63,182 nt of DNA from Loktanella sp. (GTDB lineage Bacteria; Pseudomonadota; Alphaproteobacteria; Rhodobacterales; Rhodobacteraceae). This document shows positions 24,425 to 32,839 of the stretch, in pieces. The notes beneath the pieces were generated by a model. The model was not told the origin of the DNA, made no database searches, and was given only the letters and a program-made list of their open reading frames with translations. Location of the stretch: contig JAIVHI010000001.1 in the NCBI GenBank assembly GCA_020201155.1, positions 16,375-79,556 on the forward strand. The letters are read 5' to 3'. The translations under genes and the position numbers were made by a program. The stretch's first letter is position 1. Every line of letters begins with the position of its first letter.

Positions 24425-26635
24425 ATGAGATCGAACAGGCCAACATCGCTGTCGATGCAGATCGTCGCCTCGCTGATCGTCCTGACTGTCGCCTCGGGTC
24501 TGGGCTTGATCGTCGTTGGCCACAACGCAGTCAGTTTGGTCGACGCGACCTCTGCGGAACAGCAGGCACGCTTTGCCACGCGCAATTTCGCTTCGATCAT
24601 CGCGGAGCAGCCTGAAGATCAGCGCAGCGTCACGATCTGGAACGATGCGGTCATTCGAACGGCAGCACGCGACTTTGACTGGATGGATGAGAACCTTGGC
24701 ATCTGGGTGCATGACTATTTCGGACATGACGAAACCTACGTCCTCGACCGGGACAACCTGCCTTATTACGCCGCAGTCTCATCCGAGCGGTCGAGCACGG
24801 ACAGGTATTCCGAACGGGCCGCCCTGATCGCGCCGATGGTCACGCAGCTTCGCGAGACCATGGCAACAGCAAGCGCAGGGCTGGACAATCCTTATGAGGA
24901 GCTTGCCGATGTGTCGGTCGCCGCACCTGTCAAATTCAACGACGTGACAGCCATCGTCAGCTTGGTCCCGATCATATCGGAGTCAGGAAGAGTGTCGCAA
25001 ACGCCGGGAGCGGAATCGCTGCATGTCGCACTGCAATATATCGATGCTGAACTTGCGCAGAAAATTGGTGCACCGATCGAACTGCAGGATGTGGCGTTCG
25101 GACCTTTGGCACCGGCGGAAGGGCAGGCGGGTATCCCGGCCACCGATCTGTCGGGCGACGCGGTTGCATGGCTGACTTGGCAACCCGAGCGACCTGGCAC
25201 GACACTGTTGATGGAAATGCTGCCGGTCCTTCTGGCGTCGATCGCGCTGGGGGCCCTGATGTTGTGCTGGGTGATCAACCGGCTGGTGCGGCTGTCGAGC
25301 CAATTGCAGGTCAGCGAGGCACAGGCGCGTTTCCTTGCGAACCATGACGTGCTGACAGGCCTTCCAAACCGGATCTTGTTCCAAGAGCGTCTGACGCAGG
25401 CCATGCATTCTGCCGTGCGCGACGACAATCTGGTGGCTCTGGTGGCGATCGACCTCGACAACTTCAAGCGCATCAACGATTCCCTCGGTCATCCGGCGGG
25501 CGACGAACTGGTCCGTCAGGTCGGAAACCGGCTGGTGGACTTGGTCCGGGCAAGCGATACCGTGGCGCGGTTCGGGGGTGATGAATTCCTGATCCTTCTG
25601 CGGGATGTGTCCGATGAGGATCAACTCCGGCGATTCTGCGAAAGGATCGTCGTGGACCTGTCGCATCCCTACGCCTTGCTTGGAGACACGGCCAATGTCG
25701 GCGCCAGTGTCGGTGCGGTGCTGGCGCGGGCTGACGATCAGGATTGGGACGAGTTGATGCGTCGTGCGGACATAGCCCTTTACCGGGCCAAGTCTGACGG
25801 AAAGGGGCGCTACAGCCTTTTCGAAGCCGATATCGGAAAGATCGAGAACGAGCGTAATCAGCTTGAGAGCGACCTGCGCAAATCGTTGACGTCAGGAACT
25901 GACCTTCATCTCGTCTATCAGCCTTTCTTTGATGAAAACGGAAAGATGAAAGGTGCGGAAGCTTTGTGCCGCTGGAACCACCCTCAGCGTGGCGCGCTTT
26001 CGCCTGAGATATTCATCGGACTGGCCGAGCAACGTGGGTTGATCGATCAGCTTGGTCGCTGGGTTTTAGAGACGGCCTGTGAATTTGCAGCCGGCACCAG
26101 CCTTGCGAAGATCGCCGTCAATGTATCGCCGATTCAACTCAGGCATTCCGACTTCGTTCCCATGGTGCTCAGCACGCTCCGAGAGACGGGGCTTGCGCCG
26201 GAGAGACTTGAAATCGAACTAACCGAGCAGGTGCTTCTGGACCAGCCGGCCGATATCCGAGAGAAGATCGGCCGGCTGCGCGCCGCAGGAATCTCGATCG
26301 CCTTGGATGATTTTGCGACCGGCAACTCATCCTTGCAATACCTTAGGGATTACCGGGTCGATTCCATCAAGATTGACCGATCCTTTGTGGCGCGCCTTGG
26401 CAAGGACGACGAATGTGATCACCTCGTTCAGGCGATGCTTGATCTGGTGCGCGCCATGGCCATCAACGTCACGGTAGAGGGGGTCGAGACCCAGATACAG
26501 CACGACCGCCTTGCCTCGATGGGGTGCAAGACTTTCCAGGGCTACCTGTTGGGCTATCCGATGGAGCCGGGCGTCCTGGCGTCCCTTATCGCGAATGAAG
26601 CGGATGCGGCTGAAGGATCCGAGGCTTTCGCCTGA
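24425..26635 (+). CDS. CHASE4-GGDEF-EAL cyclic-di-GMP signalling protein
   Basis: A 736-residue membrane sensor. An N-terminal membrane helix (about 12-35), a periplasmic CHASE4-like domain (about 40-255) and a second helix (about 265-287) are followed by a diguanylate cyclase domain with intact GGDEF near residue 383 and the LTGLPNRILF start. A phosphodiesterase domain follows, with EAL at about 512-514, the NVSPIQLR, ELTEQVLL and ALDDFATGNSS motifs and IKIDRSFV. Both domains look catalytically competent, so it may be bifunctional. It lies 220 bases upstream of, and parallel to, the rhodopsin operon; a regulatory link is possible but unproven. Confidence 0.9.
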   Translation: MRSNRPTSLSMQIVASLIVLTVASGLGLIVVGHNAVSLVDATSAEQQARFATRNFASIIAEQPEDQRSVTIWNDAVIRTAARDFDWMDENLGIWVHDYFGHDETYVLDRDNLPYYAAVSSERSSTDRYSERAALIAPMVTQLRETMATASAGLDNPYEELADVSVAAPVKFNDVTAIVSLVPIISESGRVSQTPGAESLHVALQYIDAELAQKIGAPIELQDVAFGPLAPAEGQAGIPATDLSGDAVAWLTWQPERPGTTLLMEMLPVLLASIALGALMLCWVINRLVRLSSQLQVSEAQARFLANHDVLTGLPNRILFQERLTQAMHSAVRDDNLVALVAIDLDNFKRINDSLGHPAGDELVRQVGNRLVDLVRASDTVARFGGDEFLILLRDVSDEDQLRRFCERIVVDLSHPYALLGDTANVGASVGAVLARADDQDWDELMRRADIALYRAKSDGKGRYSLFEADIGKIENERNQLESDLRKSLTSGTDLHLVYQPFFDENGKMKGAEALCRWNHPQRGALSPEIFIGLAEQRGLIDQLGRWVLETACEFAAGTSLAKIAVNVSPIQLRHSDFVPMVLSTLRETGLAPERLEIELTEQVLLDQPADIREKIGRLRAAGISIALDDFATGNSSLQYLRDYRVDSIKIDRSFVARLGKDDECDHLVQAMLDLVRAMAINVTVEGVETQIQHDRLASMGCKTFQGYLLGYPMEPGVLASLIANEADAAEGSEAFA

Positions 26636-26759: not shown

Positions 26760-26785
26760 AAGATGTCAGATTTATGCGACATCTT
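26760..26785. promoter_or_regulatory. PpsR/CrtJ-like TGT-N12-ACA box upstream of rhodopsin
   Basis: AAGATGTC (26760-26767) and GACATCTT (26778-26785) are perfect 8-base arms around 10 bases. Within it TGT (26764-26766), 12 bases and ACA (26779-26781) meet the PpsR/CrtJ consensus exactly. It is 73 bases upstream of the rhodopsin start codon. PpsR represses bacteriochlorophyll and carotenoid genes in purple bacteria under oxygen, so control of this operon by PpsR is a reasonable hypothesis; other regulators could use the dyad. Confidence 0.5.
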
Positions 26786-26857
26786 GTCTGTCACTGTTTT
26801 CTCACGGCCCTCGCGCCGTAGGTACGCGGCTACGGCAGAGTACCAAAGGGGAAAACT

Positions 26858-27700: not shown

Positions 27701-28537
27701 ATGCGAACACCCCGGAAACCCGATCTGGAATTTATCGAAGCCGCGATGACGACCGAGCTTGGCGAAGGTCCGGTCGCAGCGGCGGCGGCCTATCATTTGA
27801 AAGCCGGTGGCGGACGGATCCGCGCTATGCTTGCGCTTGAAGCGGGCGTCGGACTGACTGTGGACAGGTCATCGGTTGTTGCCTGTGCCTGCGCCGCCGA
27901 ACTGCTGCACAATGCGTCCCTGATCCACGACGATGTGCAGGAACAGGACAGGTCGCGGCGGGGCCGCCCTGCGCTGTGGCGTGAATTCGACGTGGCCACG
28001 GCGATCTGTGCCGGCGATCTGATGATCTCGGCCGCATACGCAAGTCTGGCCGGACATCCCTCTGCGGGGTCAGCCTTGAAACTGATGCACGAGGCGGTGT
28101 CGCTCACTGCACGGGGTCAGTCCGAGGACATGACCGGCGAAATCCGCACGCTTTCCCAATATCACGACCTTGTTGCCGCCAAGACGGCCCCGCTTCTGGC
28201 CCTGCCGGTGCGGCTTGTGCTGTGTGCCGCGGGGACGGCCGATGACCGGACCGCCGTGGATGCCAGCCGGCATTTGGCGGTCGCGTATCAGGCGCTTGAC
28301 GACCTGAATGATCGCGATGCCGACCGTGCAGAGGGTCGCGTCAACCTGTGCACCCTTTTCGAGGCACGTGGCGCCAGCCCGTCAGACGCCGCGCAGATGG
28401 CCCGCGAAGAAGCGATGTCCGCACTGGGCCGGGCACGCACGGTTGCCTTGCAAACACCCCGGGACGCGGGACGCGCGTTTCTCAACCTTGCTGACCGTCT
28501 GGACAGCGCATTGACGGAGTTTTCCCATGCCGCGTGA
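27701..28537 (+). CDS. crtE: Geranylgeranyl diphosphate synthase CrtE
   Basis: A 278-residue polyprenyl synthetase that builds C20 GGPP, the precursor of phytoene. The first aspartate-rich region is LIHDDVQEQDRSRRG and the second is QALDDLNDRDADR, shorter and more divergent than in housekeeping IspA but with both Asp pairs. KAGGGRIRAML is the conserved substrate-binding start. It is the first gene of a five-gene carotenoid-retinal unit; its 3' end overlaps crtI by 11 bases. The ATG at 27701 follows GGAGCGGTC. Confidence 0.88.
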   Translation: MRTPRKPDLEFIEAAMTTELGEGPVAAAAAYHLKAGGGRIRAMLALEAGVGLTVDRSSVVACACAAELLHNASLIHDDVQEQDRSRRGRPALWREFDVATAICAGDLMISAAYASLAGHPSAGSALKLMHEAVSLTARGQSEDMTGEIRTLSQYHDLVAAKTAPLLALPVRLVLCAAGTADDRTAVDASRHLAVAYQALDDLNDRDADRAEGRVNLCTLFEARGASPSDAAQMAREEAMSALGRARTVALQTPRDAGRAFLNLADRLDSALTEFSHAA

Positions 28538-30035
28538 TACCGCTTCCGAAATCATGCCGCGTGCGATCGTCGCCGGTGCGGGCTTTGGCGGCATCGCCGC
28601 TGCCTTGCGTCTGCGGGCGCGCGGCTACGATGTGCATCTGATCGACCGGTGCGACCGCCTTGGCGGGCGGGGACAGGTCTTCGAGCATGAGGGATTCAGG
28701 CACGATGCCGGTCCGACCGTTCTGACCGCCCCGCACCTGTTCGAAGAGCTGTTCGCACTGTTCGGCAAGCGCATGGAAGACTACATCGAACTGGTCGAGC
28801 CGGACCCCTGGTACCGGTTTTACTTTCACGATGGCGAAACATTTGACTATGGCCCGACCGAAGCCGCGACCGAGGCCGAAATCGCGCGTCTTTCGCCTTC
28901 GGACGTCGACGGATACCGCCGTCTGGGGGCGTGGTCCAAAAAGATCTACGACATCGGTTTCATGCGGTTGTCGACGACGCCGTTTCATTCCGTGGGTTTC
29001 ATGCTGCGCCAGATCCCGCATCTGGTGCGCCTGAAGTCTTATGAAAGCGTCTGGACCATGGTCAGCCGTTTCCTGAAGGACGACCGCCTGCGGCGGGCGT
29101 TTTCGATCCAACCGCTGCTGGTCGGGGGCAACCCGTTCGATACGACCGCGATCTACGGCATGATCAACCACCTTGAACGCACACATGGCATCTGGTTCCC
29201 CAAGGGCGGAACCGGCGCGCTTGTCGACGCTTTGGAGCGGCTGATGCGCGAAGAGGGCATCAAGATCGACCTCGGCACCACCATCTCACGGATCAAGCTG
29301 GACGATAAACGCGCGACTGGCGTCGTTCTCGAAGACGGCTCTGCGATCGATGCCGATATCGTGGTGTCGAACATGGACCCGGTCCATGTTTACCGCCACA
29401 TGCTGCCTGCGACGGTGCAATCCCCTGTGGCCAAGGTCCGCGCCAGAAACGCGCGACTGTCGATGGGGCTTTACGTGCTGTTCTTCGGCGCCGACAAATC
29501 CTGGCCGGACGTCGCGCATCACACGGTGTGGTTCGGGGAACGGTACAAGGAACTGCTGAAGGACATTTTCCACCGCAAGGTGCTGGCAGAGGACTTTTCG
29601 CTTTACGTGCATCGTCCGACGGCGACCGATCCAAGCTTTGCGCCTGCCGGAAAGGACAGTTTCTACGTGCTATGTCCTGTCCCCAATCTTGCAGGCGGTC
29701 AGGACTGGTCGGTCGAAGGCCCGAAACTGCGGGACCGCATTGTCAGGGCGCTGGACGAGACCATCCTGCCCGGTCTGTCCGAAACGATCACGGCGGAATT
29801 CGCCATGACGCCCGAGGATTTCAAATCGGACTACCTGTCGGTCGAAGGGGCGGGATTTTCGCTCTCTCCGTTCTTTACCCAATCCGCGTGGTTCCGGTTT
29901 CACAATCAGGGCGAGGGCGTGAAGGATCTGTATTTCGTTGGCGCCGGGACACATCCGGGCGCCGGCCTGCCAGGTGTGGTTTCATCCGCCAAGGTGCTTG
30001 ATGCCGTCGTTCCGGCGCCGGTGGCTGCGGCATGA
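28527..30035 (+). CDS. crtI: Phytoene desaturase CrtI
   Basis: A 502-residue FAD-dependent phytoene desaturase that converts phytoene to lycopene. The N-terminal dinucleotide fold is IVAGAGFGGIAAALRLRARGYDV, with GGRGQVFEHEGFRHDAGPTVL, the CrtI substrate-entry region. The C-terminal bacterial-type desaturase signature is LYFVGAGTHPGAGLPGVVSSAK. Full length. The start codon ATG at 28527 lies inside the crtE 3' end; a second ATG nine codons on (28554) is the alternative and gives a more typical length before the Rossmann strand. The stop overlaps crtB by four bases. Confidence 0.93.
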   Translation: MPRDTASEIMPRAIVAGAGFGGIAAALRLRARGYDVHLIDRCDRLGGRGQVFEHEGFRHDAGPTVLTAPHLFEELFALFGKRMEDYIELVEPDPWYRFYFHDGETFDYGPTEAATEAEIARLSPSDVDGYRRLGAWSKKIYDIGFMRLSTTPFHSVGFMLRQIPHLVRLKSYESVWTMVSRFLKDDRLRRAFSIQPLLVGGNPFDTTAIYGMINHLERTHGIWFPKGGTGALVDALERLMREEGIKIDLGTTISRIKLDDKRATGVVLEDGSAIDADIVVSNMDPVHVYRHMLPATVQSPVAKVRARNARLSMGLYVLFFGADKSWPDVAHHTVWFGERYKELLKDIFHRKVLAEDFSLYVHRPTATDPSFAPAGKDSFYVLCPVPNLAGGQDWSVEGPKLRDRIVRALDETILPGLSETITAEFAMTPEDFKSDYLSVEGAGFSLSPFFTQSAWFRFHNQGEGVKDLYFVGAGTHPGAGLPGVVSSAKVLDAVVPAPVAAA

Positions 30036-30880
30036 CCCCAAAGGAGATGCTGTCGCACCATGCCCGCAGTTTCGCACCTGCGGCACGGCTTTTGTCGACT
30101 GGCGATTATGCAAAGGTGGCGCGGCTTTACGCCTTGTGCCGCACCGTCGATGATCTTGCCGACACCGTGGGTGGCCCCGAGGTTCGGGCGCGGCTGACGA
30201 CCTTGTCGGACGAATTGCGGGCAGGGCAGGGGCAGGATCCCTTGTTCGATGAGGCGAACGCCTTGTTCGCCGGGCGACCTGAGGGGCTCGCGGCCTATGC
30301 CCTCTTGGTCGAGACCATTGCACAGGACACCGGTGAAACCTGCCTTGCGGATGACACGGCGCTTGACCGCTATTGCATGGGGGTCGCGGGAACCGTGGGC
30401 GTCATGGTCTGTTCGTTGTTCGATGTGCCGCTGATGTGGCACAGCCACGCTGCGGCCTTGGGCAAGGCGATGCAGCTTACGAATATCTGTCGCGACGTCA
30501 TGGACGATGCAAGACAGGGGCGCCGGTATCTGCCGTTCTCCTTGTGTCCGCAGACCCCTGCCGCGATCGCCTCTTGGCTACCGGGCGCGCGCGACGATAC
30601 GCGCAGCGCTGTTCAGGAATTGTTGTCGCGCGCGGAGGTGCTTTATGCGACGGGGCGCGCCGGATTGCCGGCACTGCCGTTGCGTCTGCGGCTTGCGGTC
30701 ACGGCGGCCGCCGCCATGTACGAAGGGATCGGGTCGGAACTGCGCGCCCGGTCCTGCGACCCTGCCAAGGGGCGGGCCTATGTGCCGAGATGGCGCAAGG
30801 TGGTCCTCGCGGCGCGGGGGCTGATCGTGGACATCGGCAAACGGGACCGCGCGTCAGGCCAGCAAAATGCCGCACGCTGA
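30032..30880 (+). CDS. crtB: Phytoene synthase CrtB
   Basis: A 282-residue squalene/phytoene synthase that condenses two GGPP to phytoene. The two Asp-rich motifs are YALCRTVDDLAD (about residues 34-45) and QLTNICRDVMDDARQGRRYLP, as required for Mg-diphosphate binding. It overlaps crtI by ATGA and crtY by 14 bases, showing a single polycistronic unit. C-terminal YVPRWRKVVLAARG is typical of alphaproteobacterial CrtB. Confidence 0.92.
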   Translation: MTPKEMLSHHARSFAPAARLLSTGDYAKVARLYALCRTVDDLADTVGGPEVRARLTTLSDELRAGQGQDPLFDEANALFAGRPEGLAAYALLVETIAQDTGETCLADDTALDRYCMGVAGTVGVMVCSLFDVPLMWHSHAAALGKAMQLTNICRDVMDDARQGRRYLPFSLCPQTPAAIASWLPGARDDTRSAVQELLSRAEVLYATGRAGLPALPLRLRLAVTAAAAMYEGIGSELRARSCDPAKGRAYVPRWRKVVLAARGLIVDIGKRDRASGQQNAAR

Positions 30881-31976
30881 TTTCGATATCGCGATCATGG
30901 GGGGCGGGTGCGCCGGCCTGAGCATCGCCACCAGACTTGCGTCCGCGGGACGCAACCTTTGCGTCATCGAACCGCGCACGGCCTATCATGACGACCGCGC
31001 GTGGAGTTTCTGGCGAACCGCCCCTGATCCGTTCGAGGACTGCGTTCGCGCCACGTGGCAGGGGTGGGACATCGGCGGCCCGTCCGGCATCGTTCACCGC
31101 GAATCCGCGCGGCTGCGCTACCAAAGCGTCTCGGCGGGCGCATTCTACGACCGCGCGCAATCGGTGATCTCGGATCATCCGGACGCACAGCTGCTGCTGG
31201 GCCAATCCGCGCATTCGGTGAACCGGGCCGGCAGCATCTGGGAAATCGGCACGCAAGACGACATCATCACGGCCAATCACGTGATCGACGCGCGCTCGCC
31301 AAGTCGCATCCCGACCTACGGTCAGTTTTTTCTGGGATGGGAAATCCAGGCCCAGAATGCCGTTTTTGACCCCGACCGGGTTCAGTTGATGCAATTTCGA
31401 AAAGCCCGCAGCAAGGGCGTCGATTTCGTCTATATCCTGCCCTTCGCACGGGATCGGGCCTTGGTCGAGGTGACGTCATTCGCGCCCGAGTCGCTGGGCC
31501 AGGACATCTTCAAGACGTGGCTGGAAACCGAGATCACCGCATTGGACACCGGCGGCTTCACGATCCTGCGCGAAGAATCCGGGGCCCTTCCGATGGAAGT
31601 CGGCTACCGCGAGCCACATTACGAAGGACTGATCCGCATGGGGCTTTCGGGCGGGGCGGCCCGGCCGTCGACCGGTTATGCCTTTGCACGCATACAGGCG
31701 CAGGCCGACCATGTGGCCCATGCCTTCCGGCGCGGGACAAGACCGGAGACAAATCTCGACAGTGCTTTCACGACGTTCATGGACCGGGTGTTCTTGCAGG
31801 TGATCCAAACCATTCCGGAAAGGGGCCCGGCCCTGTTTGAAAGCCTGTTTCGCAACGCGCCGGAGGATCGGCTGGAACGATTTCTGTCCGGCTCGACAAA
31901 CCCCATTGACCGTCTGTCGGTCATGACATCGCTGCCGACCCTGCCGTTCCTGCGGGCAGCACTGGCCCCGGCGTGA
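30867..31976 (+). CDS. crtY: Lycopene beta-cyclase CrtY
   Basis: A 369-residue flavoprotein-like lycopene cyclase that makes beta-carotene from lycopene. It begins with the nucleotide-binding FDIAIMGGGCAGLSIATRLA and has the CrtY hallmarks DDRAWSFW and LFLGWEIQ-like QFFLGWEIQ, then PMEVGYRE and GGAARPSTGYAFARIQ. It is intact, starts 14 bases inside crtB and ends with GTGA overlapping the blh start. Beta-carotene is the end product of the visible carotenoid genes; no ketolase or hydroxylase is present in the window. Confidence 0.92.
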   Translation: MPHADFDIAIMGGGCAGLSIATRLASAGRNLCVIEPRTAYHDDRAWSFWRTAPDPFEDCVRATWQGWDIGGPSGIVHRESARLRYQSVSAGAFYDRAQSVISDHPDAQLLLGQSAHSVNRAGSIWEIGTQDDIITANHVIDARSPSRIPTYGQFFLGWEIQAQNAVFDPDRVQLMQFRKARSKGVDFVYILPFARDRALVEVTSFAPESLGQDIFKTWLETEITALDTGGFTILREESGALPMEVGYREPHYEGLIRMGLSGGAARPSTGYAFARIQAQADHVAHAFRRGTRPETNLDSAFTTFMDRVFLQVIQTIPERGPALFESLFRNAPEDRLERFLSGSTNPIDRLSVMTSLPTLPFLRAALAPA

Positions 31977-32839
31977 CCGTCGGTCCGTGGTGGCAAACGG
32001 CTGTCTTCGCCCTTTCGGCATTGGGCGCGATTGTCGTATTCGCGACGCTCGACCCCGGTCTTGCCGTGCAGATGGCGCTGCTTGCGCCGTTTGTCGCGGT
32101 TTTTGGGCTGCCACATGGCGCACTCGACTGGCCGATCGCAGAGGCTTTGTGGCCACTGGATAGCTGGCGCGCCAAGCTTATGTTCGTGGCGCTCTACCTC
32201 GGGCTGGTCGGCTGCGTCGTGCTTGTCTGGGTGATCTTTCCGGGTCCGGCGCTGATCGCTTTCCTGACCTATTCGGCCATTCACTTTTCAGAGGACTGGT
32301 CCAATGCGCCTGCAGGTCTGCGTTGGTCAGGTGGCATGGCCACGATTGGCGCGCCCGCTTTGTTCCACCAACAGGACGTCACCCGCCTTTTCGACTATCT
32401 TGCACCCGAAAACGTCGCGATTTTCGCCGCTCAGGCCACAGCGTTGACTGGCGGTCTGGCACTTGCGTTGCTTCTGGTCACATTGCTTTGCGATCGCAGT
32501 GCGCGCGGTCAAGCCGCGTTGGAGCAGGTGCTTTTGTGGAGCACGGCTTTCGTGCTGGAGCCTTTGATCTACTTCGCCGTCTATTTCTGCGCGCTGCATT
32601 CGATGCGGCATTTCACCATCGCGCTCAAATCGACGGCCAACGCGAGGCGGGGGCTCGGCATGAGTATTGCCCTGTCGATTGTCGTGATCGGTGTTGCGGC
32701 CGTCTTCGTTGCAAGTCAGGGCCAAATCGGCACGGCCGCCAGCGAGATCCCGGATGTCTTGATGCAGACGATCTTCATCGGCCTCGCCGCTCTGACCGTC
32801 CCCCACATGCTTTTGGTGGATCGCTTTCACAGAATGTAA
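31973..32839 (+). CDS. blh: Beta-carotene 15,15'-dioxygenase Blh/Brp
   Basis: A 288-residue membrane dioxygenase that cleaves beta-carotene into two retinal molecules, supplying the chromophore of the rhodopsin. Seven or so hydrophobic helices hold the iron-ligand histidine motifs FGLPHGALDW, AIHFSEDW, CALHSMRHF and VPHMLLVD, the normal Blh set. A GTG start at 31973 overlaps the crtY stop (GTGA). It closes the rhodopsin-retinal cluster; no clear terminator follows in the 120 bases before the toxin gene. Confidence 0.92.
   Translation: MTVGPWWQTAVFALSALGAIVVFATLDPGLAVQMALLAPFVAVFGLPHGALDWPIAEALWPLDSWRAKLMFVALYLGLVGCVVLVWVIFPGPALIAFLTYSAIHFSEDWSNAPAGLRWSGGMATIGAPALFHQQDVTRLFDYLAPENVAIFAAQATALTGGLALALLLVTLLCDRSARGQAALEQVLLWSTAFVLEPLIYFAVYFCALHSMRHFTIALKSTANARRGLGMSIALSIVVIGVAAVFVASQGQIGTAASEIPDVLMQTIFIGLAALTVPHMLLVDRFHRM

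Follow-up and report, generated by a model that had tools for sequence, protein, structure and literature searches.

The window, the 63,182-nucleotide stretch of Loktanella DNA analysed here, carries a perfect inverted repeat ahead of a rhodopsin gene, and within that repeat lies a TGT-N12-ACA box resembling the operators of PpsR/CrtJ. The locus therefore raises the question of whether an operon for retinal-based phototrophy could be controlled by the regulator of bacteriochlorophyll-based photosynthesis. Of the readings considered for the dyad, we favour a PpsR operator over any other and give it about an even chance of being correct. PpsR control of the rhodopsin operon is thus plausible on sequence grounds, and the other explanations are weighed below where the evidence bears on them.

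The dyad and the operon that follows it

The dyad reads aagatgtcagatttatgcgacatctt in full, with 8-base perfect arms around the 10-base centre AGATTTATGC, and the ATG of the rhodopsin gene lies 73 bases past its last base (Table 1). A previous sequence-only reading had given these coordinates, arms and distance, and all were right when the letters were read again.

Table 1. Features at and around the dyad (positions in the window)
Feature	Coordinates	Strand	Basis or remark
CHASE4-GGDEF-EAL protein, upstream neighbour	24425..26635	+	ends 124 bases before the dyad
Perfect dyad AAGATGTC-N10-GACATCTT	26760..26785	.	read directly
TGT-N12-ACA box TGTCAGATTTATGCGACA, candidate PpsR operator	26764..26781	.	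matrix score and local shuffles
TGCGACATCTTGTC, copy of the conserved rhodopsin-promoter element	26775..26788	+	overlaps the box's right half
Degenerate second box TGTCACTGTTTTCTCACG (TGT-N12-ACG), weak	26789..26806	+	matrix score
Xanthorhodopsin-type proton-pump rhodopsin, 258 aa	26858..27634	+	PF01036, E 4e-38
crtE-like polyprenyl diphosphate synthase	27701..28537	+	below curated cut-offs; named by family and operon context
crtI, phytoene desaturase family	28527..30035	+	TIGR02734, 571.6 bits (cut-off 238.1)
crtB-like phytoene synthase	30032..30880	+	below curated cut-offs
crtY-like lycopene cyclase	30867..31976	+	TIGR01790, E 3.5e-33, below cut-off
blh/brp, beta-carotene dioxygenase (makes retinal)	31973..32839	+	TIGR03753, 170.5 bits (cut-off 95.25)

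Judged from its gene families, rhodopsin-crtE-crtI-crtB-crtY-blh is a self-sufficient retinal-phototrophy operon. The best solved relative of the rhodopsin is xanthorhodopsin (3ddl, E 5e-75), with Kin4B8 at E 1e-67, and the alignment includes a D-T-E motif (DWLLTVPLLLVE) that we take to be the proton-pump motif. At a threshold of E 1e-60, the plasmid collection contained no relatives of the rhodopsin.

The bare TGT-N12-ACA pattern means little alone, as there are 14 matches in the window where 7.6 are expected. This abundance would suit a chance dyad that has no regulatory function or forms only a weak RNA hairpin, as would an RNA fold z-score of just -1.87 at a dyad with no terminator-like site. 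The same fold result and lack of a terminator-like site led us to set aside a hairpin or terminator reading. Against chance stand the best matrix score in the 222 bases upstream of the rhodopsin operon (p = 0.001 in 5000 dinucleotide shuffles) and the overlap of the dyad with a conserved element, and we consider a chance origin very unlikely. No sigma-70 promoter is recognisable near the box.

The length of the arms calls for separate attention. A TGT-N12-ACA box whose arms pair perfectly over 8 or more positions occurs once in the window, and at least one occurs in just 10 of 200 Markov-simulated windows. The arms also exceed what PpsR needs, with AAGA outside the TGT, and the 18-base box has no exact second copy in the genome, the nearest having three mismatches and lying upstream of a pstS-like gene. 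These features would suit the operator of another lineage-specific dimeric repressor, of the TetR, LysR or MarR type for example, that uses the whole 8+8 dyad and is unrelated to PpsR. However, the outer arm bases are lost in Rhodobacter calidifons and no regulator gene was identified beside the operon in the window, and such a repressor appears improbable to us. The sequence-only reading had placed its consensus match within the 8-base arms; these are longer than the PpsR consensus, and R. calidifons does not retain them.

The near copy upstream of the pstS-like gene also prompted the idea of a Pho (phosphate) box. This was dropped because the half-sites in the rhodopsin promoter have a spacing of 13 rather than the 11 of Pho boxes. 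As an observation in its own right, locus L007 (G000:C103:4376) carries the box TTATGCGACA, with the same right half as the rhodopsin box, upstream of a phosphate-binding-protein gene that was called pstS-like from its translation.

PpsR and its boxes in the same genome

The genome comprises 3.69 Mb in 342 contigs and includes a full-length ppsR gene at C197:23481-24815. The product matches TIGR02040 end to end with 415.6 bits, and the cut-off of 275.4 was passed by none of 14 control genomes. The sequence-only reading had held that a genome lacking ppsR, together with a box not conserved in relatives, would speak against it, and the first of these does not apply. The protein has PAS domains, a C-terminal HTH_8 and exactly two cysteines, Cys261 and Cys435. 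The latter borders the Fis-type DNA-binding segment (HTH), a placement like that of C420 in CrtJ, whose partner is C249, as described in excerpts of the literature (PMC5362033).

Contig C197 also carries pufL, pufM, bchG, bchC, crtD, tspO, crtB and crtI, as well as nine intergenic TGT-N12-ACA boxes. These are located at bchC, crtE/crtD, crtI and ppsR/bchG and before the upstream neighbour of ppsR, and three of the nine fall in the crtD frame but upstream of its CrtD-matching part. The GC contents of C197 and the window are 0.627 and 0.630 and their tetranucleotide frequencies correlate with r = 0.993, so the two most likely belong to one genome and a chimeric assembly is unlikely. A 310-aa ORF (L005:2427-3356) is located directly before ppsR, where ppaA/aerR would be expected. 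We do not claim this identity, as NCBIfam gave no match at 1e-30 and Pfam none at 0.001.

A symmetric PpsR matrix was built from the nine boxes of this genome and 39 boxes flanking ppsR elsewhere (13 ppsR loci examined). A version trained only on boxes of the other genomes assigns a score of 15.4 to the rhodopsin box, a value higher than those of 7 and lower than those of 41 of the 48 known boxes. Seven of the nine boxes of the genome's own photosynthesis cluster outscore it, as does a single one of the 143 further TGT-N12-ACA entries scored, which include some duplicate loci. By this measure the rhodopsin box falls within the range of real PpsR boxes, towards its lower limit. Its inner positions agree with those of real boxes (TGT[CA]A ... 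T[GT]ACA with an AT-rich centre), the left half fitting well and the right half, GCGACA, poorly. By eye, 14 of 18 bases are shared with the genome's own crtE/crtD box.

The stricter pattern TGT[AC]A-N9-[GT]ACA occurs at 31 places in the genome, among which the rhodopsin box ranks 9th by matrix score. Ranks one to seven all fall within the photosynthesis cluster, and the eighth is in an apparent plasmid-partition gene, named from its translation rather than by database. Outside the cluster the pattern and its reversed control each give 25 rows, so most such sites there are due to chance. For 222 intergenic bases about 0.0014 places would be expected, a figure that is based on 23 places in 3.69 Mb and ignores the local AT-richness. 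Elsewhere in the genome, a PpsR-like box with a score of 15.0 is found at L167 (G000:C108:39341), within an ORF whose translation resembles the product of the cytochrome cbb3 oxidase gene ccoN.

PpsR boxes are usually paired at bchC, pucB and crtI, with 8-9 bp between them in Rubrivivax (PMC5362033; PMC4452267, in excerpt). When a tandem partner at the 8-9 bp seen at bchC was sought, the rhodopsin box was found to have only the degenerate TGT-N12-ACG partner, which starts 7 bp past it. This second box is the second-best site in a scan of the upstream region, with a matrix score of 4.2 versus 13.8 for the best. The gaps between this genome's own crtE/crtD boxes are 6 and 3. A TGT-N12-ACG box is known at Rubrivivax pucB (PMC4452267), and a single puc box has been described in Sediminicoccus KRV36 (PMC10949492).

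The arrangement thus resembles the PpsR/CrtJ operators of Rhodobacter capsulatus, R. sphaeroides and Dinoroseobacter shibae in its TGT-N12-ACA spacing, in the presence in the genome of a PpsR with two redox-type cysteines, and in adjoining an operon with carotenoid genes; the site nearest to it in sequence is the crtE/crtD box. It differs from them in that the operon it precedes encodes a xanthorhodopsin and is not part of the photosynthesis cluster, in having a single box with a degenerate partner and a matrix score under most, and in sharing one half with another element.

A conserved element in the right half of the box

An element overlapping the right half of the TGT-N12-ACA box is conserved in the rhodopsin promoters of Rhodobacterales, at positions from roughly -81 to -102, whether or not the genome has ppsR. 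In an alignment of rhodopsin upstream regions, TGCGACA falls in one column. Of 19 rhodopsin loci of the Rhodobacterales type, 10 have TGCG[AT]CA or GGCGACA no more than 110 bases upstream (five of the nine without ppsR, five of the ten with it), compared with 6.5% of random 110-base pieces, and G629 has it too. Seven loci (L013, L015, L018, L019, L021, L025 and L134) have TTGAAT 20-21 bases after TGCGACA or after a variant that differs from it by one or two bases. This composite, TGCG(A/T/G)C(A/T)-N20-21-TTGAAT, is often accompanied by TATGCCATTGAATAC, and all nine of its occurrences on both strands of 2.8 Mb of fetched loci are rhodopsin promoters or their duplicates. The TTGAAT motif is absent from the rhodopsin promoter of the window. 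The spacing makes TTGAAT unconvincing as an RpoH-type promoter when set beside the description in excerpts of PMC3441632. In Yoonia vestfoldensis (L019, about 2680-2760) the element occurs in approximately three tandem repeats (TGCGGCTTTTTGACGTAGCAGTATGCC).

In the window, R. calidifons, Aquisalinus and others, the element extends as TGCGACA-N3-TGTC or a near form. Aquisalinus flavus (L012), which has no ppsR and whose rhodopsin is 83% identical, keeps TGCGACACTTTGTC but has no left TGT. Its likeness to the window, promoter element included, suggests that the operon was transferred together with its promoter. The window and R. calidifons, both from genomes with ppsR, combine the element with a PpsR-type left half, TGTCA and TGTAA respectively. 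These are the two left-half forms favoured by the PpsR matrix, and the bases between left half and element differ. Since promoters of ppsR-free genomes also keep the right half, the left half alone counts as evidence specific to PpsR.

These data bear on the proposal that TGCGACA-N3-TGTC alone is the functional unit, either as the site of another regulator or as an upstream promoter element, and that the left TGT is a chance extension mimicking a PpsR box. The presence of the element in about half of the loci irrespective of ppsR, the confinement of the composite with TTGAAT to rhodopsin promoters or their duplicates, and the Aquisalinus promoter all favour this proposal. It accounts less well for two ppsR-bearing genomes that have matrix-preferred left halves next to unconserved intervening bases, or for a box in the ppsR-bearing genome HLUCCA08 (see below) that is independent of the TGCGACA element. 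We regard it as a serious possibility, rated below even.

A regulon marked by TGCGACA-N3-TGTC was considered and dropped, as 8 genomes gave 20 matches and the reversed pattern also gave 20. Sites at seven loci (L154, L156, L143, L146, L159, L160 and L126) share no common gene. The literature searched describes no regulator of Rhodobacterales rhodopsin promoters.

The sequence-only reading had described the box as an exact match to the PpsR/CrtJ consensus. The TGT-N12-ACA core and a score in the range of real boxes bear this out, whereas the conservation of TGCGACA in ppsR-free promoters means that part of the match has another cause. As far as promoter sequences can tell, the overlapping conserved element is the stronger feature of this region.

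Relatives with two light-harvesting systems and a proposed switch

If PpsR acts at this promoter, the box might recur upstream of rhodopsin genes in other genomes with ppsR, and the sequence-only reading had pointed to such conservation as a check. The relatives comprise the best 80 of 554 named rhodopsin loci, plus further loci from searches that spanned the family and the order and yielded 5 of 394 and 7 of 390 genomes, some of them shared. PpsR exceeded the cut-off in 11 of 21, 2 of 49 and 4 of 7 genomes, the last set repeating some; the first of these searches covered 21 of 22 given loci. For the box comparison the matrix always left out the tested genome, and the threshold was 6.5 over a range of -150 to +20. 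Of the 13 other rhodopsin genomes that carry ppsR, 3 have a box scoring at least 6.5, versus 2 of 57 without known ppsR (p = 0.04). Among the 57 loci, 56 were searched for ppsR with none over the cut-off, and L028, from a gammaproteobacterium, was outside that search. The comparison omits L017 and nine loci (L034, L035, L036, L037, L039, L041, L043, L048 and L060); one other box comparison took 67 loci as without ppsR, where the ppsR search had omitted ten, namely L028 and these nine. The ppsR-bearing L054 was omitted from both comparisons, as it has 83 upstream bases only; L016 has 156.

The three box-bearing genomes with ppsR are R. calidifons, with a box at -99 in a position homologous to that in the window, HLUCCA08, with a box at -37 (TGTCACGGACACCTGACA, p = 0.0006) whose position is unrelated to that of the window box, and Roseicyclus, where the box at -3 overlaps the start codon. 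Combining the shuffle p-values gives 0.003 for the genomes with ppsR, this one excluded, and 0.77 for the remaining genomes. When the range is narrowed to -150 to 0, the counts become 2 of 13 versus 2 of 57, which is not significant (p = 0.15), and the combined value for the ppsR-bearing set is 0.016. The rank test gave 0.06 to 0.10 over the ranges tried. A comparable box is absent in 10 of the 13 genomes, including Palleronia, whose rhodopsin is 80% identical. Conservation of the box with ppsR thus appears to be a tendency rather than a rule, and the case that it makes is weak; the expected conservation is seen in a few relatives, once at a homologous position, and lacking in most.

These distributions allow a broader interpretation, which we consider rather doubtful. 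PpsR may have been recruited more than once to the xanthorhodopsin operon in Rhodobacteraceae with dual phototrophy, providing one switch for both systems and competing with an older rhodopsin-specific element. Its sites would be at one position in the Loktanella genome and R. calidifons and elsewhere in HLUCCA08 and possibly Roseicyclus.

Both systems also occur in one genome in Sphingomonas glacialis AAP5 (PMC7762795) and R. calidifons M37P (PMC9231093). Excerpts of these two papers describe neither a PpsR site nor a promoter element ahead of the rhodopsin. The AAP5 rhodopsin is in an operon with a histidine kinase and is reported to have been silent under the conditions tested (PMC7762795). 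Strain M37P makes more pigment in the dark, for which its authors suggest xanthorhodopsin (PMC9231093). Darkness is the direction expected of PpsR repression, but carotenoids of the photosynthesis cluster would explain the pigment equally well. The sequence-only reading had considered PpsR control of a rhodopsin to be a link not known to be described, and no report of it appeared in the literature searched, which was seen partly in excerpt and is limited in scope to that extent.

Our favoured model, for which we see the evidence as evenly balanced, is that the dyad holds a candidate PpsR/CrtJ operator of moderate affinity laid over the older promoter element and acting by occlusion. PpsR, a repressor that responds to redox state and light and whose gene lies in the genome's own photosynthesis cluster, would bind 26764-26781 under oxygen (in its oxidised form) or strong light. 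Bound PpsR would mask the TGCGACA-N3-TGTC that overlaps its right half, and, given this overlap, would compete with whatever uses the element. Transcription of rhodopsin-crtE-I-B-Y-blh would then fall along with that of the photosynthesis genes. Darkness or low oxygen would release PpsR, and both phototrophic systems would be expressed. We infer the binding, its repressive direction, the signal and the role of the element as an activator site or promoter element. The direction has a precedent in D. shibae, where boxes covering -10 and -35 let PpsR repress the photosynthesis cluster in light (PMC10890935, in excerpt). PpsR may instead activate, since CrtJ is also able to activate and binds many promoters outside the cluster (PMC5362033; PMC9144470, in excerpt).

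If the model is correct, one redox and light switch would set bacteriochlorophyll and retinal phototrophy together. This bears on how bacteria with two light-harvesting systems choose between them. With the box, ppsR and photosynthesis genes in one genome, that choice becomes testable, and the conserved TGCGACA element provides a second lead.
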